From Acidovorax sp. CF316 (GTDB taxonomy: Bacteria; Pseudomonadota; Gammaproteobacteria; Burkholderiales; Burkholderiaceae_C), in assembly GCF_000276605.1 (NCBI RefSeq), contig NZ_AKJX01000099.1:1-64000 (forward strand): a stretch of DNA of 64,000 nucleotides. The letters are read 5' to 3'. How positions within the stretch are numbered: position 1 is the stretch's first letter; every line of letters begins with the position of its first letter. Below the pieces are notes generated by a model. The model did no database searches, was not told the DNA's origin, and saw only the letters and a list, made by a program, of their open reading frames with translations. This document shows positions 67-37,564 of the stretch, piece by piece. A program made the translations under genes and the position numbers.

Positions 67-287
67 TGCTGGGGATTGTCACGCACTGTGAGCAAATGTT
101 GTGTAGGTGCCCGCGCCAACGCAACAGCCGGCAGGCGCCTGCCGCGCAAATGCAACGCAATTGCCTCGCTATTCGCGCGATGGGGGCGACGCCGGGCCGC
201 TAGCATGGCTGCATGCAAGTTGAACCATTGCCTGGCGGCCAGCCGCAGGGCCCCTCCGAACGACGACTGCCCGCCGGGCAGTCCGGC

Positions 288-17259: not shown

Positions 17260-18372
17260 TCAGGTCCGTGCAGGCTTGGGCCGGGCAAACTGCCACCAGG
17301 GCAGCACGGCGCTCATGGACAGCACCTCGCCGCAGTGCATGGGCGCATAGCCGGGCAGGGCCGCCATCTGCGCCTGCCAGGCCGTGGTCTGCAGCAGGTC
17401 GCGCAGCGCCTGGGTGGCCGGCTGCTCCAGCGTGGATTTGAGGCAGGCCAGGTGGTAGCGCTCCTGCGCCAGGGGCACGAAGCCCAGGCCCCGGGCGTGG
17501 GCCGCCAGCTCGATGCCCATGCCCACGTCGGCCGCGCCGGCCGCCACCGCCTGGGCCACGGCCGTGTGCGAGGGTTCGTGGCGCTCATAGCCCTGCAGGT
17601 CGCCAGGGCCGAGACCCGCTTGCGCCAGCAGGTCGTCCAGCAGCACGCGCGTGCCGGTGCCCAGGGGCCGGTTCACGAAGCGCACGCCCGGGCGGGCCAC
17701 GTCGGCCAGCGTCTGCAGGCCCAGTGGGTTGCCGCGCGCGACGATCAGCCCCTGGGTGCGCTGGGCAAACCCGATGATCTTGTGGCGCCCCGGTCGCAGC
17801 AGCGGCTTGTAGGTGCGGGCGGCCAGCGAATCGGCGGCGGGTGTCTCCCGCGTATGGAAGCCGGCAATCGTGCACCGGCCTTCGTTGAGCGCGCGGATCG
17901 CGTCCACGCTGCCGGTGAAGCGGATGTCCAGATGCAGCGCGCCGGTTTCGCCCGGCGTGGCCGCATAGGCACGCAGCGCCGCCAGCGCATCGTCATGGCT
18001 GGCATACATGGTCAGCACATGCGCCTGGTCGTCGAAGGCCACGGCGAAGGCCCGCTCCAGGTCGGCATGCAGGGCGGCGATCTGCGGCGCCAGCCGGGCC
18101 TGGGCCTGGCGTTCGGCCCACAGCAGCTTGGCGCCGAACTCGCTGAGCTGCGCGGACTGCCCCTTGCCCCAGATGATCAATTCACCGCCCAGCTGCTCCT
18201 CCCAGCGCTTGAGGGCGCCCCAGACATGGCGGTAGGACAGCTTCAGCGCACGCGCCGCGCCGGAGATGGAGCCCTGTTCGGCCACCGCCTGCAGCAGTTC
18301 GGGCAGGGGGTTGCGGATCTGGGTGTCGCCCGCATCGCGGCTGAGCGTGTAGTGAAGTTGGACCTTATGCAC
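17260..18372 (-). CDS. ModE-like HTH regulator fused to a solute-binding-protein domain
   Basis: A 370-residue regulator. Residues 1-115 form a LysR/ModE-type winged helix (GSISGAARALKLSYRHVWGALKRWEEQLGGELI). From about 120 on comes a domain resembling periplasmic molybdate/tungstate-binding proteins (GSVDAIRALNEGRCTIAGFH, IGFAQRTQGLIVARGNP, VRFVNRPLGTGTRVLLDDLL, AVAAGAADVGMGIELAA). It starts with GTG and lies 49 bp from tupB in divergent orientation, so it probably senses tungstate or molybdate in the cytoplasm and controls tupBCA. The TATCG (18382) and CGATA (18409) arms in the short gap could be its site. The sensing role is inferred from domain order and position. Confidence 0.82.
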   Translation of the reverse strand: MHKVQLHYTLSRDAGDTQIRNPLPELLQAVAEQGSISGAARALKLSYRHVWGALKRWEEQLGGELIIWGKGQSAQLSEFGAKLLWAERQAQARLAPQIAALHADLERAFAVAFDDQAHVLTMYASHDDALAALRAYAATPGETGALHLDIRFTGSVDAIRALNEGRCTIAGFHTRETPAADSLAARTYKPLLRPGRHKIIGFAQRTQGLIVARGNPLGLQTLADVARPGVRFVNRPLGTGTRVLLDDLLAQAGLGPGDLQGYERHEPSHTAVAQAVAAGAADVGMGIELAAHARGLGFVPLAQERYHLACLKSTLEQPATQALRDLLQTTAWQAQMAALPGYAPMHCGEVLSMSAVLPWWQFARPKPART

Positions 18373-18421: not shown

Positions 18422-19159
18422 ATGTCCACCCTGACGCAAAGCGCCATCACCGCCCTCGAACTGACCTTGTCAGGGGACCCGGCGCTGTGGACCATCGTCG
18501 GCCGCTCCCTGTCGGTCAGCGCCACGGCCTGTGCGCTGGCCTGCGCCGCGGGCCTGGTGCTCGGGGCCTGGCTGGGCGTGGCCCGGTTCGCCGGCCGGGG
18601 GGCGGTGCTGGCGGTGCTCAACACCCTGCTCGCCGTGCCCTCGGTGGTGGTGGGGCTGGTGGTCTACCTGCTGCTGTCGCGCAGCGGCCCGTTCGGTGCG
18701 CTGGGCTGGCTGTTCAGCTTCAAGGCCATGGTGCTGGCCCAGACCATCCTGGTGCTGCCGGTGGTCACCGCGCTCACGCGCCAGGTGGTGGAAGACGCCG
18801 AGCGCGCCCATGGCGAGCAGCTGCGTTCGCTGGGAGCCGGCCCGCTGCTGCGCAGCCTGCTGCTGGCCTGGGACGAGCGCTATGCGCTGCTCACGGTGCT
18901 GATCGCCGCGTTCGGCCGCGCCATCTCCGAAGTCGGCGCGGTGATGGTCGTGGGCGGCAACATCGATGGCTTCACCCGCGTCATGACCACGGCCATCGCC
19001 CTCGAGACCAGCAAGGGCGACCTGCCGCTGGCGCTGGCGCTGGGCCTGGTGCTGCTGGGCGTGGTGCTGGCCCTGAACGTGCTGATCGCGCTGCTGCGCC
19101 GCTGGCGCGAGCGGGTCGATGGCGGTGCCTCCGACGTCCTGGCGGGGGTGGCGGCATGA
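18422..19159 (+). CDS. tupB: Tungstate ABC transporter permease TupB
   Basis: A 245-residue inner-membrane permease of the TupB/WtpB type with five to six membrane segments. The EAA loop is visible as VVEDAERAHGEQLRSLGAGPLLRSLLLAWDERYA, and the AISEVGAVMVVGGNIDGFTRVMTTAIALETSKGD stretch is typical of TupB. A strong AAGGAGG (18396-18402) lies about 20 nt before the ATG at 18422, further than usual, with no better start codon in between. The gene overlaps tupC by 4 bp. With tupC and tupA it forms a full importer for tungstate. Confidence 0.92.
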   Translation: MSTLTQSAITALELTLSGDPALWTIVGRSLSVSATACALACAAGLVLGAWLGVARFAGRGAVLAVLNTLLAVPSVVVGLVVYLLLSRSGPFGALGWLFSFKAMVLAQTILVLPVVTALTRQVVEDAERAHGEQLRSLGAGPLLRSLLLAWDERYALLTVLIAAFGRAISEVGAVMVVGGNIDGFTRVMTTAIALETSKGDLPLALALGLVLLGVVLALNVLIALLRRWRERVDGGASDVLAGVAA

Positions 19160-19914
19160 GGCATCCCGAGCCCCAGCCCGTGGCCATGCCGCCCGTCCTG
19201 TCCCCGCTGATCGAATTGCAGGGCGTGGCCGTGCGCTACGGCCGTGTGCAGGCGCTGGCCGACATCGACCTGCGCATTGCCCCGGGTGAGCGCGTGGCCC
19301 TGGTGGGGGCCAACGGCAGCGGCAAGAGCACCCTGTTGCGCGTGCTGCACGGCCTGGTGCCGCCCAGTGCCGGCCAGGTGCGGTGCGACGCGGCGCAGCG
19401 CCAGGCCATGCTGTTCCAGCGCCCGCACATGCTGCGCACCAGTGCCCAGAACAATGTGGCGCTGGCGCTGTGGCTGCGCGGCACGCGCTGGCGCGAGGCC
19501 CGGGCCCAGGCCCTGGCAGCGCTGCAGCGCGTGGGGCTCGAGGCCATTGCCGCGCAGAACGCGCGCACCCTGTCGGGCGGCCAGCAGCAGCGCGTGGCGC
19601 TGGCGCGCGCCTGGGGCCTGCGGCCCGGCGTGCTGCTGCTCGATGAGCCCACGGCCAGCCTGGACCCGCATGCCAAGCGCGAGGTCGAGGGCCTGATGGC
19701 CGACCTGGCAGGCAGCGCGGTGCAGCCGGACGGAAGCACCCAGGCGGTGACCATGCTGTTCAGCAGCCACAACCTGGGCCAGGTCAAGCGCCTGGCCAGC
19801 CGCGTGGTCTACCTGGAGCAGGGCCGCATCGTGGCCGCCCTGCCGGTGCACGACTTTTTCAACGGCCCCCTGCCGGAGGCCGCGCGTTTGTTCGTCAAAG
19901 GAGAAATAGGATGA
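19156..19914 (+). CDS. tupC: Tungstate ABC transporter ATP-binding protein TupC
   Basis: A 252-residue ABC ATPase. Walker A is GANGSGKST, the signature LSGGQQQRVALARAW, Walker B VLLLDEPTASLDP, and the switch His is in FSSHN. The ATG at 19156 overlaps the tupB stop; the same frame runs open far upstream inside tupB but that part is a shadow. It overlaps tupA by 4 bp. There is no C-terminal TOBE domain, unlike ModC at 25453, which fits the Tup rather than the Mod family. Confidence 0.94.
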   Translation: MRHPEPQPVAMPPVLSPLIELQGVAVRYGRVQALADIDLRIAPGERVALVGANGSGKSTLLRVLHGLVPPSAGQVRCDAAQRQAMLFQRPHMLRTSAQNNVALALWLRGTRWREARAQALAALQRVGLEAIAAQNARTLSGGQQQRVALARAWGLRPGVLLLDEPTASLDPHAKREVEGLMADLAGSAVQPDGSTQAVTMLFSSHNLGQVKRLASRVVYLEQGRIVAALPVHDFFNGPLPEAARLFVKGEIG

Positions 19915-20744
19915 GACAACCCACGATGGCCCGCCGCCACCTGCTCTTGGTTCCCTCTGCGGTCGCACTGGCCCTGGCCCTGTCGCATGGCGCGGCATTT
20001 GCGCAGGCCACGATCACCATGGCATCGACCACCTCCACCGAGCAGTCGGGCCTGTTCGGCCACCTGCTGCCGGAGTTCAAGAAAGCCAGTGGCATCGACA
20101 TCAAGGTGGTGGCCCTGGGCACCGGCCAGGCGCTGGACATGGCGCGCCGCGGCGATGCCGACGTGCTCTTCGTGCACGACCAGGTGGCCGAGGAGAAGTT
20201 CGTGGCCGATGGCTGGGGCGTCAAGCGCTACCCGGTGATGTACAACGACTTCATCCTCGTGGGCCCCAAGGCCGACCCGGCGGGTACGCAGGGCAAGGAC
20301 ATCGTCGAGGCCCTGAAGAAGCTGGCGGCCGGCAGCGCCCCGTTCATCTCGCGTGGTGACAAGAGCGGCACACACGCCGCCGAGCTGCGCTACTGGAAGC
20401 TCGCGGGCGCCGAGGCGGCCAAGGGCGGCGGCTACAAGGAATGCGGCTGCGGCATGGGCCCGGCGCTGAACATCGCTGCCTCCAGCGGCGCCTACGTGCT
20501 GGCCGACCGGGGCACCTGGCTCAACTTCAAGAACCGCGCCGACATGGTGGTGCTGGTCGAGGGCGACACGCGCCTGTTCAACCAGTACGGGGTGATGGTG
20601 GTCAACCCGGCCAAGCACCCGCAGATCAAGGTGCAGGACGCCCAGAAGTTCGTGGACTGGGTGGTCTCGCCCGGTGGGCAGGCCAGCATCGCCGCCTACA
20701 AGATCGGCGGCGAGCAGCTGTTCTTCCCCAACGCCGGCAAGTAG
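19911..20744 (+). CDS. tupA: Tungstate-binding periplasmic protein TupA
   Basis: A 277-residue binding protein with a cleavable signal (AAFAQA near residue 30). It carries both TupA hallmarks: the TTSTE loop (residues 40-44) and the SRGDKSGTH motif (about residues 147-155), which together bind tungstate with very high selectivity over molybdate in characterised TupA proteins. The rest, GTGQALDMARRGDADVLFVHD and LADRGTWLNFKN, also fits. It ends the translationally coupled tupBCA run. The unusual B-C-A order is shared by several proteobacteria. Confidence 0.94.
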   Translation: MRQPTMARRHLLLVPSAVALALALSHGAAFAQATITMASTTSTEQSGLFGHLLPEFKKASGIDIKVVALGTGQALDMARRGDADVLFVHDQVAEEKFVADGWGVKRYPVMYNDFILVGPKADPAGTQGKDIVEALKKLAAGSAPFISRGDKSGTHAAELRYWKLAGAEAAKGGGYKECGCGMGPALNIAASSGAYVLADRGTWLNFKNRADMVVLVEGDTRLFNQYGVMVVNPAKHPQIKVQDAQKFVDWVVSPGGQASIAAYKIGGEQLFFPNAGK

Positions 20745-20759: not shown

Positions 20760-21581
20760 ATGCACCGCTGGATGCCCAGGGCCCTGGCGGCGGGGGCCAT
20801 GCTGGCCATGGCGGGCTGCGCTAGCCCGCCGGCCGAGCCGGCCGCTGCGCCCGCGGCGCTGCAGGTCTATGCTGCCGGCAGCCTGCGCGAGGTGTTCACC
20901 GAGGTGGCCGCCGCGCACCAGGCGCGCACGGGCCAGCCGGTGGAACTGAGCTTCGGCGCATCGGGACTGCTGCGCGAGCGCATCGAGCAGGGTGCGCCGG
21001 CCCAGGTGTTCGCGTCGGCGGATACGCAGCACCCGGCACGCCTGGCGGCCCGGGGCGGCTGGCAGGCGCCCGTGGTGTTCGTGCGCAACGGCCTGTGCGC
21101 CCTGGCCGCCGAGCAGGTCCGCACCACCCCCGCGACCCTGCTGGCCACCCTGCTGCGGCCCGATATCCGGCTGGGTACTTCCACGCCGCTCGCCGACCCC
21201 TCGGGCGACTATGCCTGGGAGCTGTTCCGCCGTGCCGAGGCGGTGCAACCGGGGGCCTTCGCGGTGCTGGAGGCCAAGGCATTGCAGCTCACCGGCGGTG
21301 CCAGCTCGCCCAAGCCACCCGCCGGGCGCGGCACCTATGCCTGGGTCATGGAGCAGGGGCAGGCCGATGTCTTCCTGACCTACTGCACCAACGCCATTGC
21401 CAGCCAGCGGGAGCTGCCGCGCCTGCAGGTGGTACAGGTGCCGCCCGCGCTGCAGGTGGGCGCCGCCTACGGCGTGTCGGTGCGTTCGGGGGCTCCGCCT
21501 GCAGCGCATGCATTCGTGCGCGCACTGCTCTCGGAATCCGCCCAGGCGGTGTTCAAGCGGATGGGCTTTGCGGCGCCCTGA
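20760..21581 (+). CDS. ModA-like substrate-binding lipoprotein
   Basis: A 273-residue lipoprotein (lipobox LAMAGC, Cys20) with the molybdate-binding-protein fold: LQVYAAGSLREVFTEVAAAH at the start and SFGASGLLRERIEQGAPAQVFASAD as first ligand loops. It starts 15 bp after tupA, so it belongs to the same transcript. It has no permease of its own, and full tungstate and molybdate systems with their own binding proteins flank it. It may feed TupBC with another oxyanion, or act as a scavenger or sensor. The DVFLTYCTNA stretch with a cysteine differs from classic ModA. Confidence 0.8.
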   Translation: MHRWMPRALAAGAMLAMAGCASPPAEPAAAPAALQVYAAGSLREVFTEVAAAHQARTGQPVELSFGASGLLRERIEQGAPAQVFASADTQHPARLAARGGWQAPVVFVRNGLCALAAEQVRTTPATLLATLLRPDIRLGTSTPLADPSGDYAWELFRRAEAVQPGAFAVLEAKALQLTGGASSPKPPAGRGTYAWVMEQGQADVFLTYCTNAIASQRELPRLQVVQVPPALQVGAAYGVSVRSGAPPAAHAFVRALLSESAQAVFKRMGFAAP

Positions 21582-21588
21582 CCGGTGT

Positions 21589-22068
21589 TCAGAATTCCAG
21601 AGAAGGCTTGGCCACCATGAGGTAGAACACCACCACCATGGCCACGAAGGCCGGGTAGCCCAGCGCCTCCCACCAGCGGGCGTAGCGCCAGTAGGTGGGG
21701 GGCAGGGCGTCGCTGCCGGCGTCGGCCGCCTGCTGGGCCAGTGCGCGCATGCGCAGCTGCAGCCACACCACGGGCAGCCAGCACAGGCCGGCCAGCACGT
21801 ACAGCGCGAGCGAGACGGCGAGCCAGGGCGTGGACAGGGGCAGGCCTGCCATGTGCGCCATGGCCAGCCCCGTGGCGGGCTGGATGAACACCGTGGGCGT
21901 GGTGAACCACCAGTCCGCCCGCACCACCAGCCGCGCCACCACGGCCTGGGCCTGCAGGTTGCCGCTGCGGTTGGCAAAGAACATGTAGTAGGCCGAGCCC
22001 AGGCCCGTGCCCACCAGCAGCACGCTGGAGACGATGTGGATCCACTTGAGGGTCAGGTACAGGCTCAT
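21589..22068 (-). CDS. DUF2269-family integral membrane protein
   Basis: A 159-residue inner-membrane protein with four hydrophobic segments, starting LTLKWIHIVSSVLLVGTGLGSAYYMFFANRS, which is the DUF2269 pattern with a His in the first helix. The family has no known function. The ATG at 22068 overlaps the stop of the DoxX-like gene (ATGA). It is the last gene of the EAL operon and converges on the ModA-like lipoprotein gene with only 7 bp between them. Confidence 0.8.
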   Translation of the reverse strand: MSLYLTLKWIHIVSSVLLVGTGLGSAYYMFFANRSGNLQAQAVVARLVVRADWWFTTPTVFIQPATGLAMAHMAGLPLSTPWLAVSLALYVLAGLCWLPVVWLQLRMRALAQQAADAGSDALPPTYWRYARWWEALGYPAFVAMVVVFYLMVAKPSLEF

Positions 22069-22436
22069 GGTCGGGGGTCGTCGCGCAGCAGCACCACCAG
22101 GATGGCGGCGATGGGCAGGTTCTTGGTCAGCGGGCCGAAGGGGTGCAGCCACCACCCGGGCTCGATGGCGGTGGCCAGCAGCGTCATCACCCCCATCAGC
22201 AGCAGCGCAGCGGCATAGGCCACGCGGCCGGGCCACAGAGCGATCCACAGGCCCACCACGGCGTCGGCGGCGGCGCCGGCCAGCACCAGGGCGGTGACGA
22301 CCTGTGGGCTGTTGAAGGGCAGGGTGGCCAGCAGCTGGCGGCTTTGGCCGTCGAGCTCCCAGACGCTGACGACCGCCGTGGCGAGCCAGACGAAGACCAG
22401 GCTGTAGCGCAGCAGGCGGCGGTGGGCGTCGCTCAT
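22065..22436 (-). CDS. DoxX-like small membrane protein
   Basis: A 123-residue protein with four hydrophobic segments: LLRYSLVFVWLATAVVSVWE, VVTALVLAGAAADAVVGLWIALW, AYAAALLLMGVMTLLATAI, and the end segment NLPIAAILVVLLRDD. Layout and the HPFGPLTKNLP motif match the DoxX-like family, often encoded next to saccharopine-dehydrogenase-like proteins, as here. It overlaps both neighbours by 4 bp. The molecular role is unknown; redox or lipid-related membrane functions have been proposed for DoxX relatives. Confidence 0.8.
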   Translation of the reverse strand: MSDAHRRLLRYSLVFVWLATAVVSVWELDGQSRQLLATLPFNSPQVVTALVLAGAAADAVVGLWIALWPGRVAYAAALLLMGVMTLLATAIEPGWWLHPFGPLTKNLPIAAILVVLLRDDPRP

Positions 22437-23569
22437 GGTGCTGGGGCCTCTTCTTCCACCACGTCCGTCACCATGCCCCATTTCGTGAACTCGGGCGCAA
22501 AGGCCGCCAGCGGCAGCAGGCTGGTGCAGGTGTGGGCGCCGACCGGAAGGACGGCATGGTCTCGCGCGAGCTGGCGCGCCAGCAGGATGGCGGCCATGCA
22601 GGGGATCTCGGGGCCGTGGTCGTTGTCGGCGGCGATGTGCCAGGCGCGGCGCCGCGGTGCGCCCTGTGCATCGGCACCGGCCACGCGCACCACCATGCCG
22701 CCCAGCGGCGTGCCAAGGAAGTCGAAGACCCCGCCCGTGCGGTGCATGAGCCCGGCCAGGCGCTCGGGGCGCCGCAGCACGCCCCAGGCGCGCAGCGCGG
22801 CGATGGCAGCGAAGGCGCGCTGGGCCAGACCCACTTCGAGTGCGGCGCGAAAGTCCACCCGCTGCGTGACGCGGTAATGGGCCGGCAGCAGCTCCAGGTC
22901 GGGGATGTCGCAGACCGCCGCCCGGCGCGGGCGCAGGCGCTGGAACCGCACCAGGGTGGGCGCCGCCCAGCCGAGCCGGTTCTGCCAGCGGCCGTCCTCC
23001 CACACGGGGATGGCCTCGCCGCAGTAGCTGAGCACGGCTGCCAGGGTGGCCTGGCCGCGCGGCGCGCGCTGGGCCGGGGCGATGCAGATGTCGATGCTGT
23101 CGATGCGCTGCCAGCCGGCGCACAGCTGGTCCACCACCGCCGAGGACAGGGCCGGCACCGTGCTGGCGCCGCAGACCGCCGTGCGCCCCGCCGCCGTGAA
23201 CCGGGCGTTCAGGGCCGCCGGGAAGTCGCAGACGAAGCGGCGCCCGTCGGCCAGGTCGATGTAGTGCGCACCGGCTTCGGCGGCCGCCTCGGCCACCGCA
23301 TAGCCCTGCGCCTGGAACGGCCCCGCCGTGTGGACCACCAGGCCCACGCCGAGCGCCTTCAAGGTCTGCGCCAGGCCGGGCGCGCTGTGGTCCAGCGCGA
23401 CGCCCTGGGCACCCGGGCCCAGCGTGGCTGCCAGGGCCTGGGCCTGGGCGGCGCTGCGGCCGGCCACCAGCAGGTGGATGCTCGGGTCGCCGGCCAGTGC
23501 GCGGCAGACGCGGGCGCCGAAGTTGCCATAGCCCCCAAGCACCAGGGTGGTCAGTGCAGCAGTGCTCAT
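22433..23569 (-). CDS. Saccharopine-dehydrogenase-like NAD(P)-binding protein
   Basis: A 378-residue protein with an N-terminal Rossmann fold (TLVLGGYGNFGARVCRAL, residues 7-24; LLVAGRSAAQA next) as in the saccharopine dehydrogenase / trans-acting enoyl reductase group. VVHTAGPFQAQGYAVAEAAAEAGAHYIDLADG is the conserved active-site region of this group. The C-terminal part (KWGMVTDVVEE) is less conserved. True saccharopine metabolism is not implied. The ATG at 23569 overlaps the EAL gene stop and its own stop overlaps the DoxX-like gene. With that partner it may reduce a lipid or an unknown carbonyl compound at the membrane. Confidence 0.82.
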   Translation of the reverse strand: MSTAALTTLVLGGYGNFGARVCRALAGDPSIHLLVAGRSAAQAQALAATLGPGAQGVALDHSAPGLAQTLKALGVGLVVHTAGPFQAQGYAVAEAAAEAGAHYIDLADGRRFVCDFPAALNARFTAAGRTAVCGASTVPALSSAVVDQLCAGWQRIDSIDICIAPAQRAPRGQATLAAVLSYCGEAIPVWEDGRWQNRLGWAAPTLVRFQRLRPRRAAVCDIPDLELLPAHYRVTQRVDFRAALEVGLAQRAFAAIAALRAWGVLRRPERLAGLMHRTGGVFDFLGTPLGGMVVRVAGADAQGAPRRRAWHIAADNDHGPEIPCMAAILLARQLARDHAVLPVGAHTCTSLLPLAAFAPEFTKWGMVTDVVEEEAPAP

Positions 23570-25278
23570 CGGCGGGCCCCTTGGGGCTGCTGCATCCAGG
23601 CGGCAGCCGCCGCAGGGGAGGCGTGGGGTTCGGGGGATTCCGGGGAGTCGGTCGTGCCCGCCTGGGCCCGCAGTGTGGCCAGGTGCTGGGGCCACTGGGC
23701 CTGGTTCCAGCAGGGCACGTCGGCAGCCGGCATGGGCCTGCAAAAGACATAGCCCTGGATGGTGGGCAGGCCACAGGCCGCCAGGGTCTGCAGCTCGGCC
23801 GGGGTCTCGACCCCTTCCACCACCACCGACAGGCCGAACTCGCTGGCCAGCGCGCCCACGTGCCGCAGCAGCGACTGGCGCCGAGGGTCCTGGGCCAGCT
23901 GGCGCATGAACAGGCGGTCGCACTTGATGCCGGCAATCGGCAGGTCGGCCAGCATGCCCAGCGAGGAGTACCCGGCGCCGAAGTCGTCCATCAGCACGCC
24001 CACGCCGATGGCCTGCAGTCGGCGGATGGATTCGAGCATGCGCGGGCCGCTGGCGATCAGTGCGTGCTCGGTCAGCTCCAGCTTGAGGGCGCTGCCGGGC
24101 AGGGCACGGCGCGCGAGCTCGGCCTGCAGCCAGTGCGCGAAATCCTCTTCGAGCAGGGTGGCCGGTGCCACGTTCACGCTGAACTTCGCCGCCGCCATGC
24201 CAGCGCTGCGCCATTGGCAGGCCCAGGCCATGGCGTTGGTCAGGATCAACCGGTCCACCAGGGGCGTCTTGCCCTGCAGTTCGCAGACCAGCAGGAAGGC
24301 CTCGGGATGGATGGGCCCCAGGAGCTCGCTGCGCACCCGCAGCAGCGCCTCGAACTGCACCTCGCCGCTGTCCAGGTCGGCAATCGGCTGGAAGTGCAGG
24401 ACCAGTTGCTCGGGCAGCAGCAGCTGCGGCAGCTGGTCCGCGATCAGCGACAGCTGGATGTCTCCCTCGGGCGCCTGCACTTCGTAGCTGGAGGTGCGCA
24501 TCAGCGACAGGCCGCGGCGCAGCAGCTGCTGGCGCGCCTGGTCGAAGCGCATGTTGCTCAGCTGCTCGGTGGCGATGGCCATGCCGAACAGCAGCACGAT
24601 CACCAGCAGCGCCACCCCGTCGGTGGGCGCGGCGCTGTCGGGCCATTCCAGGGGAAAGGTGTTCACCAGCAGCCAGTGCAGCACCAGGATGGCGGCGCCG
24701 GCCAGGAGCTTGTCCTGCCATTTCTGGGGAATGTAGATGCGCGTCAGGGCCTTCATCTTGGCCGCGCGGTGGCGTATGGAGGTGTAGGCGGCGATGCCGA
24801 TGGCCGTGGCCAGGGCCAGCACGACGGCCAGACCGTTCACCCGCGCATAGCTCGATACGTAGTCTTCGGAGATGGTGAAGTGTGCGGCCAGCATGCCCAG
24901 CGACAGCCCGGTCCCGGCCAGCAGGATGCGTGCCTTGCTGGTGCTGGTGCTCAGCGTGGGGACCGTCAGCCGCGCGCTCAGCGCCATGATGACCAGCCCC
25001 GTGAGCGCGGGCACCAGGCCCAGCATGTGGCCGGCCAGCTCGGCATACATGAGCATGCCCACCACGTCCAGCGCCCACACGACGCAGCCGATGCACAGGG
25101 CGGCATGGGATGCGCTGATGCGCCGGCTCGACGGGTCGATGGCAAAGGCCGTGTGCTCCACGAGCCGCTGGCACACGTGCACGACCAGCGAGGCGAAGAT
25201 CCAGAACAGCAGGCTGTGCAGCAGCGGCGGAAAGCCCACCGCGAACACCTGCGTGGCGTCATGCCCGATTGAAAACAT
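23566..25278 (-). CDS. Membrane-bound EAL-domain protein (cyclic-di-GMP phosphodiesterase)
   Basis: A 570-residue protein: an N-terminal membrane part of seven or eight helices (residues 1-240) that resembles an MHYT sensor (GMLMY and GMLAAHF motifs in place of MHYT), then an EAL domain (about 290-535). Key residues for c-di-GMP hydrolysis are there: EALLR, NVAP, ELTEH, MDDFGAGYSSL, IKCDR, VVEGVET and the final IQGYVF. So it is probably active. The ATG at 25278 follows GGGGGGAAGGG on the minus strand and is preferred to a TTG at 25296. It leads an operon whose four genes all overlap by 4 bp. Confidence 0.88.
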   Translation of the reverse strand: MFSIGHDATQVFAVGFPPLLHSLLFWIFASLVVHVCQRLVEHTAFAIDPSSRRISASHAALCIGCVVWALDVVGMLMYAELAGHMLGLVPALTGLVIMALSARLTVPTLSTSTSKARILLAGTGLSLGMLAAHFTISEDYVSSYARVNGLAVVLALATAIGIAAYTSIRHRAAKMKALTRIYIPQKWQDKLLAGAAILVLHWLLVNTFPLEWPDSAAPTDGVALLVIVLLFGMAIATEQLSNMRFDQARQQLLRRGLSLMRTSSYEVQAPEGDIQLSLIADQLPQLLLPEQLVLHFQPIADLDSGEVQFEALLRVRSELLGPIHPEAFLLVCELQGKTPLVDRLILTNAMAWACQWRSAGMAAAKFSVNVAPATLLEEDFAHWLQAELARRALPGSALKLELTEHALIASGPRMLESIRRLQAIGVGVLMDDFGAGYSSLGMLADLPIAGIKCDRLFMRQLAQDPRRQSLLRHVGALASEFGLSVVVEGVETPAELQTLAACGLPTIQGYVFCRPMPAADVPCWNQAQWPQHLATLRAQAGTTDSPESPEPHASPAAAAAWMQQPQGARR

Positions 25279-25402
25279 CCTGACCCTTCCCCCCAAAATC
25301 TTGTGCAGTCATCATACGACCTGCCCATGTCGGGGAGGCTGGACCCAGGAACTGGGCCGCCATTTCAGCGCTCCATGGCGCTGCACGCCATGCCCGAGCC
25401 GC

Positions 25403-25450
25403 GAAACTGGCACGGCCCAAGCCAGTGCTGCTGCGCGGTGCCACAGGAGG
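25403..25450. repeat. Dispersed repeat, copy C (partial)
   Basis: Positions 25403-25427 match 3941-3965 at 22 of 25 positions and contain arms ACTGGC and GCCAGT around GGCC. The 19-bp end shared by copies A and B is missing. It sits between the start of the EAL gene and the end of modC. Confidence 0.6.
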
Positions 25451-25452
25451 CA

Positions 25453-26547
25453 TCAATTGACGATGGCGACGCCCTTGACCTGGGCGAAGACGGCCTTGCC
25501 CGGCGCCAGTGCCAGGGCCTGGGCCGAGCGCTGCGTCACCCGCGCCAGCAGCCGCGTGGGGCCGGCATCGAGCGCCACCATGCACTGCCCGGGGCTGTCG
25601 GCGTCGACCTGCACCACCGTGGCGGCCAGGATGTTGAGGATGCTGGTGTCCACCTGCTCGGCCAGGGTCAGGCTCACATCGCGCGCCTGGATGCGCAGGC
25701 GCACCGGCGTGCCGGCCGGCCGCTCCGTGGGGCTGGCCAGCAGCAGCTGGCCGCCGGCGAACTGCACGCTGGTGATGTGGTCGTGCGCGTCATGGCGCAG
25801 CACCGTGCCCTCCACCACCGAAGCCGCTGCATCGCCGTGCGCCAGCGGCAGGTCCAGGCGCACCAGCATGTCCTCGGTGCGCCCGCTGGCCAGCACCCGG
25901 CCGTCCTGCATCAGCACCATGTGCGCGGCCAGGCGCGCCACCTCGTCGATGGCGTGGCTCACGTAGAGCACGGGTATCTCCAGCGCCTGGTGCAGCCGTT
26001 CCAGGTAGGGCAGCACCTCGGCCTTGCGCTGGGCGTCCAGCGCGGCCAGGGGCTCGTCCATCAGCAGCACGCGCGGGCCCGTGGCCAGGGCGCGGGCCAT
26101 GGCCACGCGCTGGCGCTCGCCGCCCGAGAGGGCATGGGGCTTGCGGTCCATCAGGTGGGCGATGCCCAGCAGGTCCACCGCCTGGTCCAGCGCCACGGTG
26201 TGCTGCCGCTCCCGGGGAGTGCGCTTGCGGCCGTAGTCGATGTTGCCGCGCACGCTCAGGTGCTCGAACAGGCTGGCCTCCTGGAACACATAGCCCAGCG
26301 CGCGCTGGTGCGTGGGCCGCCAGATGCGCTGGCCATCGTCCTGCCAGACCTCGCCGTTGACCACCACGCGGCCCGGCTCGGCCCGCGCCAGCCCCGCGAG
26401 GGCACGCAGGCTGGTGGTCTTGCCGCAGCCCGAGGGGCCGAACAGGGCGGTGACGCCGCGCCCGGGCAGCGTGAGGTCCACGTCGAGCGTGAAGCCGCCG
26501 GGGCGGGCGAGCACCAGGCGGGCGGAGATCTGGTCGTCTGCAGCCAT
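25453..26547 (-). CDS. modC: Molybdate ABC transporter ATP-binding protein ModC
   Basis: A 364-residue ABC ATPase. Walker A is GPSGCGKTT, the signature LSGGERQRVAMARAL, Walker B VLLMDEPLAALD, and the switch His is in VSHAIDE. Residues from about 295 form the C-terminal TOBE (mop) domain that binds oxyanion and regulates ModC (RIQARDVSLTLAEQVDTSILNILAATVVQVD). The ATG at 26547 shares one base with the modB stop (TGATG). It is the last gene of modABC. Confidence 0.96.
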   Translation of the reverse strand: MAADDQISARLVLARPGGFTLDVDLTLPGRGVTALFGPSGCGKTTSLRALAGLARAEPGRVVVNGEVWQDDGQRIWRPTHQRALGYVFQEASLFEHLSVRGNIDYGRKRTPRERQHTVALDQAVDLLGIAHLMDRKPHALSGGERQRVAMARALATGPRVLLMDEPLAALDAQRKAEVLPYLERLHQALEIPVLYVSHAIDEVARLAAHMVLMQDGRVLASGRTEDMLVRLDLPLAHGDAAASVVEGTVLRHDAHDHITSVQFAGGQLLLASPTERPAGTPVRLRIQARDVSLTLAEQVDTSILNILAATVVQVDADSPGQCMVALDAGPTRLLARVTQRSAQALALAPGKAVFAQVKGVAIVN

Positions 26548-27227
26548 CAGGACACCATGGACGCGCGGCGGCGTGTGAGGTTCAGGCCCAGCAGCACCAG
26601 GAAGGAGAAGGCCACCATGCCGCCCGCCAGCCAGTGGGCCTGGGTGTATTCGAGGGCTTCCACATGGTCGTAGATCTGCACCGAGACCACGCGCGTCACG
26701 CCCGGGATGTTGCCGCCCAGCATGAGCACCACGCCGAACTCGCCCACCGTGTGGGCAAAGCTCAGGATGGCCGCGGTGATGAAGCCCGGGCGCGCCAGCG
26801 GCAGTACCACGGTGAAGAACCGGTCCAGCGGCCCGGCGCCCAGCGTCGCTGCCGCCTCGAGCGGCCGGGTGCCGATGGCCTCGAACGCCGCCTGCAGCGG
26901 CTGCACCGCGAACGGCAGCGAATAGATCAGCGAGCCCGCCACCAGCCCCCAGAAGGTGAAGGGCAGGGCGCCCACGCCCAGCCACTGCGTGAACTGCCCG
27001 ATGGGCCCGTTGGGGCCCATGGTGACCAGCAGGTAAAAACCGATCACCGTGGGCGGCAGCACCAGCGGCAGCGCCACCACGGCCGACACCGGCCCGCGCC
27101 AGCGCGAGGGCGTGTGCGCCAGCCACCAGGCCAGCGGCGTGCACAGCACCAGTAGCAGTGCCATGGTGGTGCCCGCGAGCCGAAGCGTGAGGCCGATGGC
27201 CGCAAGGTCGGCGCTGGAAAAGGGCAT
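26547..27227 (-). CDS. modB: Molybdate ABC transporter permease ModB
   Basis: A 226-residue inner-membrane permease with five to six helices. The sequence [25 protein letters not shown] and the EAA loop ([25 protein letters not shown]) are the ModB pattern, and [34 protein letters not shown] is the conserved C-terminal region. It follows modA by 31 bp and overlaps modC by one base. Confidence 0.96.
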
Positions 27228-27258
27228 GGACAGTAGCGAGGGAGCGTGCGGGAACTAG

Positions 27259-28066
<808 letters not shown>

Positions 28067-28145
28067 AAAGCAGGCGCCGTGGCGCGCTGGCAGCCCTTGT
28101 GGCGCGTGGCGGTATTCGGGCCGCATCCCCTACACTGTGTCCACC

Positions 28146-28781
28146 ATGCTGATGTTCCCTCCTGAAATCCTTGCCGCCTACCTTGTTGCCGTGATGGTCG
28201 TGGTCTTTGCGCCGGGGCCGGACAACATCCTGGCCATCAGCCGCGGCCTGAGCCAGGGGCGCCTGGCGGCGGTGCTGTCCTCCATCGGTGCGGGCCTGGG
28301 CATCATGGTGCACACAGTGGCCGCCACGCTGGGGCTCACGCTCATCGTGCAGGCCTCGCCGCTGGCCTTCTGGGCCGTGAAGATCGCCGGCGCGGCCTAC
28401 CTGCTGTACCTGGGGTACAAGGCGCTGACCTCGGGCAACCTGATCTCGTTCGCGCCGGCCGCGCGCCAGCCACTGGCCAAGGTGTTCGGCGTGGGCCTGT
28501 TCTCCAACGTGCTCAACCCCAAGCCGGGGCTGTTCGTGCTGGCCTTCATCCCGCAGTTCGTCGATGCATCGCGCGGCCCCGTGGCCACGCAGATGCTGGT
28601 GTACGGCGCCATCTTCGCGGTGCTCACGGCGCTCATCTTCTCGGTGCTGGGCAGTTGCGCGGCGCAGCTCTCGGGCTGGCTGGCGCGCCGCCCGCGTGCC
28701 ACGAAGTGGCTCAATACCGGCGCGGGCGTCACCTTCATCGCCTCGGGCATTTCGGTGCTGGCACTGGGCAACCGGCGCTAG
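28146..28781 (+). CDS. LysE/RhtB-family exporter
   Basis: A 211-residue membrane protein with the LysE pattern: PGPDNILAISRGLSQGRLAAVLSSIGAGLGIMVH in the first third and FSNVLNPKPGLFVLAFIPQFV in the middle. Such proteins export amino acids or derivatives. A GTG at 28137 and ATGs at 28146 and 28152 are possible starts; I chose 28146. It is divergent from modA and lies 18 bp before modE, so it is probably co-transcribed with modE. The link between an amino-acid exporter and molybdate control is unclear. Confidence 0.88.
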   Translation: MLMFPPEILAAYLVAVMVVVFAPGPDNILAISRGLSQGRLAAVLSSIGAGLGIMVHTVAATLGLTLIVQASPLAFWAVKIAGAAYLLYLGYKALTSGNLISFAPAARQPLAKVFGVGLFSNVLNPKPGLFVLAFIPQFVDASRGPVATQMLVYGAIFAVLTALIFSVLGSCAAQLSGWLARRPRATKWLNTGAGVTFIASGISVLALGNRR

Positions 28782-28799
28782 GCAAGGCACCGCGCCCCG

Positions 28800-29579
28800 A
28801 TGCCCGGTACCCCTCCCGTTTCCTTTGCGGGCGCGCTCAGCCATGACATGGCCGACAAGCGCATCGCCATCCTGCGCGAGATCGGCGCGGGCGGCTCGAT
28901 CTCGCAGGCGGCGCGCGCCGTCGGCGTGAGCTACAAGGCCGCCTGGCAGGCGCTCGACACCCTCACCAACCTGGCCGGCACGCCCCTGGTGGACCGTGCC
29001 GTGGGCGGTGCCGGCGGTGGCGGTGCCCAACTGACCGATGCCGGACACCAGTTGCTGGCCGCCGCCGACGCCATGGCCGAAGCGCGCAGCGCCGTGCTGG
29101 CCCGCTGGGAAGGCCGCGCCGGCCCGGCGGCGGCGCGCCTGTCGGTGCGCACCAGCATGCGCAACCAGTGGCCCTGCACGGTGCAGCGGTTGGAGCCTCT
29201 GGGCCAGATCGTGCGCGTGCACCTGGGGCGGGCCGAGGGTGAGGAGGTGGCCTTCCTCAGCGCCCGCATCACGCTGGAGAGTGTCGAACTGCTGGGCCTT
29301 GCGCCCGGCCTGGCGGTGCAGGCCCTGTGCAAGGCCACGGCGGTGCGTGTCGAGCGCGCCGGCAAAGACATGCTGCCGGCCGAACCCGGCATCTGCCGCC
29401 TGCCCGCCAGGGCAGTGCGCGTGGTGCGGGGGGAGTCGGGGGATGAAGTGTCTGCGGAGCTGGACGGGGGCATCCAGATGGTGGGCTTTGCTGCCCCCGA
29501 CAGCGGCCTGCGTGCCGGCAGCCGGGTGCTGCTGGTCGTGGAAGACAACGCTGTGGTGATCGCGCTGGCCCAGGGCTGA
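28800..29579 (+). CDS. modE: Molybdate-responsive regulator ModE
   Basis: A 259-residue full-length ModE. The N-terminal winged helix has GSISQAARAVGVSYKAAWQALDTLTN and the GGAGGGGAQLTDAG turn that is almost unique to ModE. Two mop (TOBE) domains follow, about residues 118-185 (SVRTSMRNQWPCTVQRLEPLGQIVRVHL) and 198-259, which bind molybdate at the dimer interface. Mo-bound ModE usually represses modABC and activates molybdoenzyme genes. The start at 28800 gives a short leader before the HTH; an ATG at 28845 would be too close to it. It converges with the GAF-Fis regulator gene (7 bp gap). Confidence 0.95.
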   Translation: MPGTPPVSFAGALSHDMADKRIAILREIGAGGSISQAARAVGVSYKAAWQALDTLTNLAGTPLVDRAVGGAGGGGAQLTDAGHQLLAAADAMAEARSAVLARWEGRAGPAAARLSVRTSMRNQWPCTVQRLEPLGQIVRVHLGRAEGEEVAFLSARITLESVELLGLAPGLAVQALCKATAVRVERAGKDMLPAEPGICRLPARAVRVVRGESGDEVSAELDGGIQMVGFAAPDSGLRAGSRVLLVVEDNAVVIALAQG

Positions 29580-29586
29580 GCGCGAC

Positions 29587-30738
29587 TCAATGCCCCTTCG
29601 GGGCTCCCAACTTGCGGTACACCGTGGCCCGGCTGATGCCCAGGGCGCGCGCCGCCTCGGCCACATTGCCGCGCGCCTCCTGCACCGCCTGGCGGATGAG
29701 CGCGGTTTCCGCCGCGCGCAGCGGTGCCGCCGCCACGGCAGGCGCCGGCGTGGGGGGCAGCAGGGGCCGCAGGATACTGCCCTGCCGGGGCGCCAGCGCC
29801 AGGCCCTGCAGGCGCAGGCCCGACCACAGTGGCAGGTCCAGCGGCGCGGCGCCCGCATTCTGGCGCTGCGCAGCATCGAACAGCAGGGCCCAGGGCAGGG
29901 CCAGCAGCTCGCTGGCATGGGCGCGGGTGCCCGGCGTGCGCAGCGGCTGGGGCACCAGCTGGCGCGCCGTGCGGTTGCTGCCCTGTATGTAGCCATCGGC
30001 GTCCAGCAGCATCAGGCCATCGCCTTCGCCGCCCAGCGTGCTGCCGGGCCAGTTCAGGCGCAGCAGCAGTGCATGGGGCCGCTGCAGCAGCAGGGCGTCT
30101 TCGATGGCGCGGGCCGAGCGGTCCACCAGGTGGCGCAGTTCGGGCCGCTCGGGCACGTCCACGCCCGTCAGGTCCAGCATGCCGGCGCAGCGGCCCTCGG
30201 GGTCGAACAGCGGCGCACCGGCGCAGCTGTAATGGGTGTTGTCATCGAAGAAGTGCTCGCCCCGGTGCAGCCACACGGGCTGCAGCTCGGCCAGGGCGGC
30301 GCCGATGGCGGTGGTGCCCACGGCCGCTTCCGACAGGTCGATGCCCACGCGGCCGATGGCATGCACGCGCGCGTCGCGGTGGTCGATGGCGCCCTGCACG
30401 TCCACCACCACGCCGCGCGCATCGGTGAGCACCGCGAAGTAGTGCATGCCGGCAATGGCGCGCGTAAGGTGGCCGAGCACCGGGCGTGCGGCCTGCAGCA
30501 GGTGGCGGTGCTGTTCGGCCACGCCGCGCAGCATGGCGGCGCTCACCTGGTCGAAGGCCACGCGCTGGCGCGGCGACTGGCCCTGAGCCAGGCAGCGCTG
30601 CCACGAGCGCACGATCCAGGGCTCGATGCCCAGCGCGGCCGGCACCTGGCCCTGGCTGAACAGGGCGGTGCGGGCGCGGGCGATCAGGGCCTGGCGCTCG
30701 TCGGGCGGTGGCGTGACGGCAGCAGCGGCGGACAGCAT
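29587..30738 (-). CDS. GAF-Fis regulator (AcoR-like, lacking the AAA+ domain)
   Basis: A 383-residue regulator. The N-terminal region and GAF domain (about residues 25-215) match AcoR-type sensors: WQRCLAQGQSPRQ, GRVGIDLSEAAVGTTAIGAAL, HFFDDNTHYSCAGAPLFDPEGRCAGMLDLTGVD. A PAS-like segment follows (GLMLLDADGYIQGSNRTAR), then a Fis-type HTH at the end (QAVQEARGNVAEAARALGISRATVYRKL). The AAA+ domain with GAFTGA that contacts sigma-54 is absent, so it cannot act as a classic sigma-54 activator. The ATG at 30738 has GGGAG before it. It is divergent from the cox cluster and likely controls it. Confidence 0.88.
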   Translation of the reverse strand: MLSAAAAVTPPPDERQALIARARTALFSQGQVPAALGIEPWIVRSWQRCLAQGQSPRQRVAFDQVSAAMLRGVAEQHRHLLQAARPVLGHLTRAIAGMHYFAVLTDARGVVVDVQGAIDHRDARVHAIGRVGIDLSEAAVGTTAIGAALAELQPVWLHRGEHFFDDNTHYSCAGAPLFDPEGRCAGMLDLTGVDVPERPELRHLVDRSARAIEDALLLQRPHALLLRLNWPGSTLGGEGDGLMLLDADGYIQGSNRTARQLVPQPLRTPGTRAHASELLALPWALLFDAAQRQNAGAAPLDLPLWSGLRLQGLALAPRQGSILRPLLPPTPAPAVAAAPLRAAETALIRQAVQEARGNVAEAARALGISRATVYRKLGAPKGH

Positions 30739-30957: not shown

Positions 30958-31428
30958 ATGCAAGTCCAGTTCACCGTCAACGGCCGTGCGGCCAGCGTTG
31001 ATGTCCCCCCCAACACCCTGCTGGTCCACGCGCTGCGAGAGCACCTGATGCTCACCGGCACGCACGTGGGCTGCGACACCAGCCAGTGCGGCGCGTGCAC
31101 CGTGCACGTCAACGGCCGCGCGGTGAAATCCTGCGCCATGCTGGCCGTGCAGGCCCAGGGCGCCGAGGTGCAGACCATCGAGGGCCTGGCCGCGGCCGAC
31201 GGCACCATGCATCCCATGCAGGCGGCCTTCAAGGAATGCCATGGCCTGCAGTGCGGCTTCTGCACCCCGGGCATGGTGATGAGCGCGGTGGACCTGTGCA
31301 CCCACCACCCCAAGGCGGACGAGGGCGAGATCCGCGAGTTGCTGGAGGGCAACATCTGCCGCTGCACCGGCTACCAGAACATCGTGCGTGCCGTCCAGCA
31401 CGGCCAGAAGGCCATGGCGTCGGCCTGA
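30958..31428 (+). CDS. coxS: Molybdenum hydroxylase [2Fe-2S] subunit (CoxS-like)
   Basis: A 156-residue iron-sulfur subunit of a xanthine-oxidase-family enzyme. The N-terminal plant-type [2Fe-2S] site has [16 protein letters not shown], and the C-terminal helical site has [11 protein letters not shown] and [10 protein letters not shown]. All eight cysteines are present. It passes electrons from the Mo centre in CoxL to FAD in CoxM. The ATG at 30958 follows GAGGAGA. Gene order S-L-M differs from the M-S-L order of the well-studied carboxydotrophs. Confidence 0.94.
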
Positions 31429-31465
31429 GCCCCCGTCCAGAACTCACACACCAGGAGACAAGACC

Positions 31466-33853
31466 ATGGGTGCTTCCGACTTTTCCAAGCTGCCGCACAT
31501 CGGTGAATCGCTTCGCCGCAAGGAAGACTACCGATTCCTCACTGGCGCGGGCCAGTACACCGACGACGTGGTGCTGGCCGCGCAGAGCCACGCCGTGTTC
31601 GTGCGATCGCCGCATGCGCATGCGCGCATCAACAGCATCAACACCGACGCCGCGAAGGCCGCACCCGGCGTGCTGGGCGTGTTCGTGGGCACCGACGTGG
31701 CGGCCGACAGCATCAACGGCCTGCCCTGTGGCTGGCTCATCACCAGCACCGACGGCCAGCCCATGAAGGAGCCGCCGCACCCCATCCTGGCGCAGGGCAA
31801 GGTGCGCTACGTGGGCGACCACGTGGCCATGGTCGTGGCGCTCACGCAGCAGCAGGCGCGCGATGCGGCCGAGCTGGTGGAGGTGGACTACGACGTGCTG
31901 CCCGCCGTGGTCCATGTGGCCGATGCCGCCGCCGGCAAGGTGGCTGGTGCCGGCCTGCATGACATCGCCGACGACAACCATTGCTACAAATGGGCCATCG
32001 GCGACAAGGGGGCGGTGGACTCGGTGTTCGCCAGCGCCGCGCACGTGACGAAACTCGACCTGGTCAACAACCGCCTGATTCCCAACGCGATGGAGCCGCG
32101 CACGGCCATCGGCTCCTACAGCCGGGCCAACGACGAATACACGCTCTACGTGAGCAACCAGAACCCGCACGTCGAGCGCCTGTTGATGACCGCCTTCGTG
32201 ATGGGCCTGCCCGAGCACAAGGTGCGCGTGATCGCGCCCGACGTGGGCGGTGGCTTCGGCTCCAAGATCTTCCTGTACGCCGAGGACGTGTGCCTGACCT
32301 GGGCCGCCAAGAAGCTCAACCGCAACATCAAGTGGGTGGCCGACCGCAGCGAGGCCTTCCTCTCGGATGCCCATGGCCGCGACCACGTGAGCCATGCCGA
32401 GATGGCCATGGACAAGGACGGCAAGTTCCTGGCCATGCGCGTGCACACCGACGCCAACCTGGGTGCCTACCTGTCGACCTTCGCCACGGCCGTGCCCACC
32501 ATCCTCTACGCCACCTTGCTGGCCGGGCAGTACACCACGCCCCAGGTCTATGTGGAGGTGGACGCCTGGTTCACCAACACCGCGCCGGTCGATGCCTACC
32601 GCGGTGCGGGCCGGCCCGAGGCCACCTACCTGCTCGAACGCCTGGTCACGCGCTGCGCCTGGGACCTGGGCCTGTCGCAGGACGAGATCCGCAAGCGCAA
32701 CTTCATCACCACCTTTCCCTACCAGACGCCGGTGGCGCTGCAGTACGACGTGGGCGACTACCACGCCTGCATGACCCAGGCCCAGGAGCTGGCCGACGTG
32801 GCCGGCTTCGAGGCGCGCAAGAGCGCCAGCGCCGCCAAGGGCCTGCTGCGCGGCGTGGGCTACAGCAGCTACATCGAGGCCTGCGGCATCGCGCCGTCGA
32901 ACATCGCCGGCGCCCTGGGCGCGCGTGCCGGCCTGTTCGAATGCGGCGAGGTGCGCGTGCACCCCACGGGCAGCGTGACGGTGTTCACCGGCTCGCACAG
33001 CCACGGCCAGGGGCACGAGACCACCTTTGCCCAGGTGGTGGCGGCGCGCCTGGGCATTCCGGTGGAGAACGTGGACATCGTGCACGGCGACACCGGCCGC
33101 GTGCCCTTCGGCATGGGCACCTACGGCTCGCGCTCCATCAGCGTGGGCGGGGCGGCCATCATGAAGGCACTGGACAAGATCGAGGCCAAGGCCAAGAAGA
33201 TCGCGGCCCACCTGATGGAAGCCAGCGACGCCGACATCGACTTCAGCGGCGGCGAGTTCAGCGTGCGCGGCACGGACAAGAAAATCCCCTTCGGCCAGGT
33301 GGCGCTCACGGCCTACGTGCCGCACAACTACCCGCTTGACAAGCTCGAACCGGGGCTCAACGAAACGGCCTTCTACGACCCGACCAACTTCACCTTCCCG
33401 GCCGGCACCTACATCTGCGAGGTGGAGGTGGACCCGATGACCGGCTCCACCCGGGTGGACCGCTTCACTGCGGTGGACGACTTCGGCACCATCATCAACC
33501 CCATGATCGTCGAGGGCCAGGTGCATGGCGGGCTGGTGCAGGGCATCGGCCAGGCGTTGATGGAGAACTGCGTGTACGACCGCGAAACCGGCCAGCTGCT
33601 CACCGGCAGCTTCATGGACTACGCCATGCCGCGTGCCGATGATTTCCCCGAGTTCAAGCTGGGCCATGTCTGCACGCCCTGCACGCACAACCCGCTCGGT
33701 ACCAAGGGCTGCGGCGAGGCCGGCGCCATCGGCTCGCCGCCCGCGGTGATCAATGCCTTGCTCGACGCCCTGCGCCCGCTGGGCGTGAAGGAATTCGACA
33801 TGCCCGCATCGCCCCACCGCGTGTGGGAAGCCATCCAATCCGCCAAGGCATGA
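31466..33853 (+). CDS. coxL: Molybdenum hydroxylase large subunit, form II CODH-like (CoxL-like)
   Basis: A 795-residue subunit that carries the molybdopterin-cytosine-dinucleotide cofactor. It has VGGGFGSK in the Mo-binding region, AYRGAGR at residues 377-383, and the general base Glu751 in [13 protein letters not shown]. True CO dehydrogenases (form I) have AYxCSFR with the Cys that holds copper; AYRGAGR marks form II, whose members have not been shown to live on CO and may oxidise aldehydes or N-heterocycles. So the substrate is open. AGGAG precedes the ATG at 31466. It is co-transcribed with coxS and coxM. Confidence 0.94.
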
Positions 33854-33865
33854 GGAGAGCACACC

Positions 33866-34657: not shown

Positions 34658-34661
34658 CGCC

Positions 34662-35570: not shown

Positions 35571-35571
35571 C

Positions 35572-36789: not shown

Positions 36790-36828
36790 CGCCAACGACC
36801 TGACTGAATCACCGAGGAATCAATCACC

Positions 36829-37512: not shown

Positions 37513-37564
37513 CGGTATCCCTCGGCGCACGGAACCGCCGGGCCTTGGGCACAATCTACGCACG

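Follow-up and report, generated by a model that had tools for sequence, protein, structure and literature searches.

Among the described systems closest to the genes considered here, the DoxX-SseA-SodA membrane oxidoreductase complex of Mycobacterium tuberculosis joins a DoxX-family membrane protein to a redox partner. On the signalling side, passages of PMC11347149 describe NbdA and MucR of Pseudomonas aeruginosa as MHYT-GGDEF-EAL proteins, with a histidine of the second MHYT motif needed for the nitrate response of MucR. They also describe CoxC of Afipia carboxidovorans, whose MHYT domain senses carbon monoxide (CO) and needs copper. Here we compare with these systems four co-directional genes in a 64,000-nucleotide stretch of Acidovorax sp. 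CF316 (contig NZ_AKJX01000099.1, positions 1 to 64,000; hereafter 'the window'). The genes encode, in order, an EAL-domain protein (EAL), a saccharopine-dehydrogenase-like protein (SDH), a DoxX_3 protein and a DUF2269 protein, and they sit between a co-directional modABC set upstream and a convergent tup/modA set downstream. We consider it somewhat probable, going by sequence comparisons, that this run comprises two functional units: a widespread Rossmann-DoxX_3-DUF2269 redox trio and a genus-specific, MHYT-like EAL phosphodiesterase acting on cyclic di-GMP (c-di-GMP), the two sharing the region downstream of modABC.

The trio is found in many genera. A scan of named genomes returned 499 SDH relatives. 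The 80 that were retained comprise 20 Acidovorax mod/tup loci (L158-L177; throughout, L numbers denote loci and G numbers genomes) and 60 others (L178-L237), mostly titled as Variovorax, Rhodoferax, Massilia and other Burkholderiales, with some Luteimonas and Pseudoxanthomonas and, in L222, another Acidovorax. Among the 20, L171 and L176 come from A. delafieldii DSM 64 and A. temperans DSM 7270. Downstream of SDH in the 60 others, by a strict count that scored early-ending contigs as misses, stand DUF2269 in 46, DoxX_3 in 38, to which tblastn adds ten, and SRPBCC in 18; UbiB is found in none. In some loci the small gene that separates SDH from DoxX_3 is SRPBCC (PF10604, START-like), and the ABC1/UbiB (PF03109) gene, which scores 439 bits against TIGR01982, under the cut-off of 488, follows DUF2269. 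The EAL gene stands beside SDH in 13 of the 20 Acidovorax loci and in none of the 60 outside the mod/tup locus. The steadier unit is SDH-DoxX-DUF2269, sometimes with SRPBCC and, in Acidovorax, with the UbiB/ABC1 gene.

A similar arrangement recurs across the phylum, where 73 of 299 genomes have a DUF2269 match. Among the 30 best-scoring DUF2269 loci (window included), an SDR match lies upstream in 24 and an SDH match in one, the window itself; two loci gave a DoxX_3 match only and three a second DUF2269 only. Nine of the SDR proteins were scanned with Pfam: eight carry a C-terminal DoxX_3 domain, and in the ninth DoxX_3 lies in the next overlapping frame. A Rossmann protein fused to DoxX_3, with DUF2269 next to it, argues strongly for joint action of the three. 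The window likewise has DoxX_3 and DUF2269 beside a same-strand NAD(P)-binding Rossmann protein, and its SDH-DoxX_3-DUF2269 run can be read as a saccharopine-dehydrogenase-type variant of this widespread membrane module. Tandem DUF2269 genes, the second copy more diverged, occur in L317, L319 and L326. Six genus genomes have a DUF2269 gene elsewhere (L139-L144); in L139-L141 an epimerase-type SDR family gene precedes DoxX_3-DUF2269 and an SRPBCC-domain family gene follows, as assigned by Pfam from one member of each family. Distant SDH genes adjoin DUF4166 and DCC genes instead of trio partners. The neighbours of such relatives in L149-L154 are DUF4166 and DCC1-like thiol-disulfide genes, and in L150 a DUF4166-like part seems, by eye, to be fused to SDH.

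Adjacency of EAL and SDH is so far a trait of one genus. In a sample of 47 genus genomes, matches were found to SDH in 30, to the EAL N-terminal region in 26 and to DUF2269 in 32. Both EAL and SDH are present and adjacent in 22 (in G240 with a broken SDH frame). Four genomes have EAL without SDH (G220, G222, G228, G242), always between modC and the tup/modA genes; eight have SDH without EAL (G209, G221, G225, G227, G230, G233, G237, G239), always downstream of modC; and 13 have neither. The mod locus was read in four of these 13, among them L350, with an SDH fragment after modC, and L351, with the order modC-DoxX-UbiB. The L350 fragment (~5417-5914) is a truncated SDH start, and the trio has seemingly decayed there. 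In G240 the locus appears twice on one contig (L133 and L134), in inverted orientation and with the SDH frame broken in both copies, possibly an assembly artefact.

We placed 32 of 35 loci on a midpoint-rooted tree of the TupB, ModE-like and TupA proteins (L124, L125 and L135, lacking these markers, were left out). The minimum number of presence changes is two for EAL, three for SDH, eight for SRPBCC and six for UbiB. EAL occurs in loci to either side of the midpoint root, so it was probably in the locus early in the genus, and either EAL or SDH can be lost alone. Such separate loss of EAL and trio argues against an obligate system. A functional tie between them would be facultative, and the two units may communicate in Acidovorax; with the EAL gene at the head of the trio in this one genus, both may be co-expressed with molybdate import.

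Beyond the genus, in a sample of 197 other genomes of the family, ten carry a relative of SDH (E up to 1e-20) and three a relative of the EAL sensor (E up to 1e-10); none carries both. The 18 kb read around those three EAL relatives gave no SDH, DoxX, DUF2269 or tup match, the sole mod-type match being one distant (29%) modC-like ATPase. Across the order, the EAL sensor profile matches four of 399 genomes, the window's own included; for the two new ones (G533, G353), profile searches of the 15 kb read gave no SDH, DoxX_3, DUF2269, mod or tup match.

The EAL protein looks active and is probably a phosphodiesterase that lowers c-di-GMP. Its EAL domain scores 186.1 bits against a curated Pfam cut-off of 31.3, and its best solved relatives are DosP (4hu3) and RocR (3sy8). 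Residues E310, N369, E401, D431, D432, K452, E488 and Q508, which we take, after RocR, to be the metal and c-di-GMP residues, are invariant in an alignment of 25 sequences (the window and 24 of 29 relatives). Residues 1-270 have no Pfam match, with none to MHYT (PF03707) up to E 0.1, and a profile of this region found no solved structure up to E 5. Aligned by hhalign to a profile of the seven-helix regions of four MHYT proteins from the same genome, the region gave a probability of 51.8 and a score of 38.1 over 185 columns; controls reached at most 20.4 (100 column shuffles), 24.7 (100 block shuffles) and 15.9 (reversal). The motif positions read L-D71-V, A-H133-F and L-H201-W, that is, LD, AH and LH instead of MH, and three Met-His-Tyr/Phe motifs are not found in this sensor. 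All 25 sequences have W68, D71 and H133, and at least 90% have H201. Judged by its profile and these positions, the seven-helix sensor is a diverged MHYT domain overlooked by Pfam. With the second-motif histidine kept and the Met residues gone, it may respond to a different cue.

SDH matched no NCBIfam model, and a search for a full-length match to a characterised lysine-pathway saccharopine dehydrogenase gave a best solved relative that covers profile positions 2-173 only (E 1e-9). In DoxX_3, residues W17, D58, G62, P93, P99, G101 and K105 are shared by 12 sequences, of which six belong to SDR-DoxX fusions. The DUF2269 protein is a four-helix membrane protein with a mean AlphaFold2 pLDDT of 92.8 (51 of 66 sequences). 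Its N-terminus carries a conserved K/R-x-x-H, whose histidine, His11, is invariant in a 51-sequence alignment and is seen in 29 of 30 phylum-wide starts; in L327 the chosen start is off. Foldseek found no PDB match to the model under E 0.001, and a profile search of solved structures gave a single chance-level match (E 0.95). Compared with the MHYT profile, DUF2269 was not clearly above shuffles. By eye, the ends of the DUF2269 and HemJ proteins look similar.

Features of the locus in the window (positions are those of the window; residue numbers are those of the EAL protein)
Feature	Position	Strand	Remarks
EAL gene	23566-25278	-	570 residues; Pfam EAL, E 8.4e-55
EAL protein domains	residues 1-270; ~282-515		seven-helix, apparently diverged MHYT-like membrane domain; EAL domain
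SDH gene	22433-23569	-	378 residues; Pfam Sacchrp_dh_NADP, E 9.9e-12
DoxX_3 gene	22065-22436	-	123 residues; Pfam DoxX_3, E 7.8e-18
DUF2269 gene	21589-22068	-	159 residues; Pfam DUF2269, E 1.1e-61
modC-EAL gap	25279-25452	-	174 bp; may hold a promoter
modC, molybdate transporter ATPase	25453-26544	-	TIGR02142, 437 bits (cut-off 285)
modB permease	26547-27227	-	named from position and reading, without a family scan
modA binding protein	27259-28017	-	named from position and reading, without a family scan; order conserved in relatives
Second modA-type binding protein	20760-21581	+	NF002917, 286.7 bits (cut-off 264); convergent with DUF2269, 7 bp apart
tupB, tupC, tupA	18422-20744	+	best model for tupA is TupA, 239.7, below cut-off 400; tupB and tupC named by position
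ModE/PBP-like regulator	17260-18372	-	Pfam HTH_1 and PBP_like
ModE-type regulator	28839-29579		beyond modABC
Molybdenum hydroxylase cluster, cox type	30958-38647		coxS-L-M, AAA, CoxE, CoxG, XdhC-type; beyond the ModE-type and Fis-type regulators

The Pfam matches of all four proteins exceed their curated cut-offs, and an ATGA is common to each of the three neighbour pairs. The original prediction, made from the letters and open reading frames, had named the same gene content, four genes overlapping by ATGA in a row, a membrane sensor joined to an EAL domain with intact catalytic residues, and oxyanion transporters on either side, all of which the coordinates, family matches and alignments bear out. 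In our gene calls for the window, overlaps of four bases join eight of the 44 same-strand neighbour pairs; three are those of this run, leaving five of 41 elsewhere, and three in a row is only mildly unusual against that background. For relatives, the start codons were script-picked and uncurated. Counted in this way, the DoxX-DUF2269 overlap is retained in 23 of 25 mod/tup loci holding both genes (window not counted), and the EAL-SDH overlap is found in nine of the 21 other genus genomes holding both, or 10 of 22 with the window. In six relatives EAL and SDH are 28 to 290 bp apart.

The gap between modC and EAL spans 61-274 bp in the genus loci. A simple scan of 21400-28900 found no sigma-70-like promoter there and terminator-like sites at chance level, and the window has no Rfam family at gathering scores. 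Matches to modB occur in 43 of the 47 genus genomes, more distant copies counted. The second molybdate-type binding protein gene follows tupA in the tup operon and has no match in several relatives (e.g. L105 and L107). A 383-residue protein at 29587-30738 has a Fis-type HTH_8 as its sole Pfam match and resembles an AcoR-type regulator without the AAA domain. Further out, the 34 loci L105-L138 reach to differing distances, and 18 of them show a coxS relative. The source genome comprises 7.09 Mb in 315 contigs.

If the two-unit reading holds, the SDH (or SDR) protein would dock on DoxX_3 and DUF2269, and reducing equivalents would pass between NAD(P)H and a lipid-soluble partner, a quinone or another lipid, which the START-like SRPBCC and the UbiB proteins would handle. 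The EAL protein would lower c-di-GMP when a membrane cue, perhaps a gas, a metal or a redox signal, is present, and its shared position with the trio after modABC would link both to molybdenum supply.

Several results weigh against this picture. Within the genus, genomes with both EAL and SDH are more numerous than independence predicts (22/4/8/13 of 47; Fisher p 0.0019, computed on genomes that are related and not independent). DUF2269 is missing by the strict count from 14 of the 60 loci L178-L237, some of them on short contigs, and in L179 (Mitsuaria) a different EAL protein (28% identity), not counted as beside SDH, lies ~1.6 kb upstream of it on the same strand. The 30 DUF2269 loci were taken from the top of the score list and not drawn at random, and substrates may differ between the SDR and SDH types. 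Because UbiB is limited to the Acidovorax locus (13 of 20 there, 0 of 60 elsewhere), the link to quinones rests on one genus and on SRPBCC. The AlphaFold2 model of the MHYT-like domain is poor (pLDDT 47.7, 13 sequences). For the fold of DUF2269, VIA-align returned generic four-helix bundles only, including a cytochrome b6f chain whose Z of 11.9 falls within the tool's warning range for helical bundles. The HemJ (UPF0093) profile scored 16.6 against DUF2269, inside 60 block shuffles (maximum 21.2), and PuuD scored 33.6 over 31 columns, tied with the shuffle maximum of 33.2.

The original prediction saw in the four genes either a membrane redox or lipid system under c-di-GMP control or a sensor of the imported oxyanions. 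A single four-gene Acidovorax system, in which EAL would read a redox or lipid state from SDH-DoxX-DUF2269 and adjust local c-di-GMP, with translational coupling matching the parts, strikes us as rather unlikely. The adjacency in 22 genus genomes, with a four-base overlap in 10 of them, speaks for it and disposes of the thought that the arrangement might be confined to this strain; so do the probable early presence of EAL on both sides of the root and its place beside SDH in five genomes that have no adjacent modABC. Against these stand the eight genomes with SDH alone and the four with EAL alone, the spacing of up to 290 bp in relatives, and the absence of EAL beside SDH from all 60 loci elsewhere. 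Of the earlier proposal, the redox or lipid direction remains plausible for the trio, given the SRPBCC and UbiB neighbours and the SDR-DoxX fusions; c-di-GMP control of all four genes as one system is not supported. We regard as improbable a further variant, in which the adjacent SDH-(SRPBCC)-DoxX-DUF2269-(UbiB) set is a membrane oxidoreductase that handles a lipid or quinone, and in which an MHYT domain with a degenerate copper site has taken on, in Acidovorax, the new role of sensing the redox state of that compound, with c-di-GMP destroyed in step; if true, c-di-GMP signalling would have a new type of input, from membrane redox chemistry.

That EAL instead senses molybdate or tungstate status, or merely belongs to a mod regulon, and so couples the supply of these metals to c-di-GMP, is similarly hard to credit. 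Its position is suggestive: 17 of the 22 genomes with both EAL and SDH, and all four with EAL only, have a co-directional modC upstream, a tupA match stands beside EAL in 26 of 26 genomes (window included), and molybdate transport has reportedly been linked to biofilm in a study of Helicobacter pylori. Yet EAL and SDH are kept in five genomes without an adjacent modABC (G201, G204, G216, G226, G232), where the best modB match, 68-69% identical, lies elsewhere. No ModE-like palindrome was found with up to three mismatches to the Escherichia coli pattern, and the Rfam search of the window was equally empty. We are aware of no MHYT domain with an oxyanion site, and the 18 kb read around the three relatives from outside the genus lacks a tup match and shows just the distant modC-like ATPase. 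The oxyanion half of the original prediction is therefore poorly supported. Where modABC is not beside EAL (L114, L118, L120, L121, L122), there stand four divergent genes, read by eye as arsR, glyoxalase, arsC and acr3. We had considered that ars-type genes replaced modABC in those five genomes and dropped the idea, since the same genes also adjoin modABC, lying beyond it, in L115, L117 and L124; loss of modABC from between is the better reading. There is a small chance, finally, that common descent within an island of molybdenum and Mo-enzyme genes is all that holds these genes together, with no functional tie and with overlaps that reflect compact packing. Four-base overlaps are frequent in the window, parts were gained and lost piecemeal on the locus tree, and a broken SDH piece follows modC in L350. 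The retention of the DoxX-DUF2269 overlap, the presence of the trio in many genera and the Rossmann-DoxX fusions elsewhere count against it, and together they indicate that at least the trio is functional.

We found no description of an EAL-SDH-DoxX-DUF2269 set in the literature searched (passages of PMC4562309, PMC11267869, PMC11347149 and PMC5524735 included), which left subscription journals mostly outside; the original prediction had likewise known of none. The passages of PMC5524735 report that nitrate lowers c-di-GMP in Burkholderia pseudomallei and do not mention the set. The Rossmann-DoxX_3-DUF2269 redox trio is apparently undescribed. DUF2269, named in two papers of that literature, is a widespread uncharacterised membrane family and DoxX_3 is little better known. 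The recurrent order, the NAD(P)-binding partner, the DoxX_3 fusion and the SRPBCC and UbiB neighbours would turn several uncharacterised families into one testable, phylum-wide membrane redox unit.

Set beside NbdA and MucR, the EAL protein of the window shares a seven-helix membrane sensor joined to an EAL domain; the three motif positions align and the second-motif histidine is kept as H133. It differs in having no GGDEF match and no Pfam MHYT match, with the motif Met replaced and the first His an Asp. As a diverged MHYT domain missed by Pfam, it provides a naturally occurring variant with which to ask what residues sensing depends on in this gas-sensor family. CoxC likewise has an MHYT-type sensor domain, and a cox-like cluster lies ~6 kb away in the window, but CoxC is a DNA-binding repressor, and the large subunit of the window's cox-type cluster carries AYRGAGR. 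This motif presumably marks form II, not a proven CO dehydrogenase. CO sensing by the EAL protein, an idea prompted by CoxC and the nearby cluster, was dropped given that subunit.

The DoxX-SseA-SodA complex pairs its membrane protein with a redox partner much as we propose for the trio, while its partners and gene order differ. Passages of PMC4562309 report a distant HMM similarity (E 0.15) between DUF2269 and DUF989, the membrane domain of the urate oxidase PuuD; DUF2269 differs in lacking a cytochrome c domain, and our profile comparison ties with shuffles. A further parallel is a set of unnamed gene pairs in other genomes of the phylum, an SDR-DoxX_3 fusion followed by DUF2269. Their Rossmann protein is an epimerase-type SDR, fused in eight of nine scanned, whereas the window has a separate saccharopine-dehydrogenase-like protein. 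The order of NAD(P)-binding Rossmann protein, DoxX_3 and DUF2269 is nonetheless the same, and the DoxX residues and the K/R-x-x-H start of DUF2269 are common to these pairs and the window proteins.

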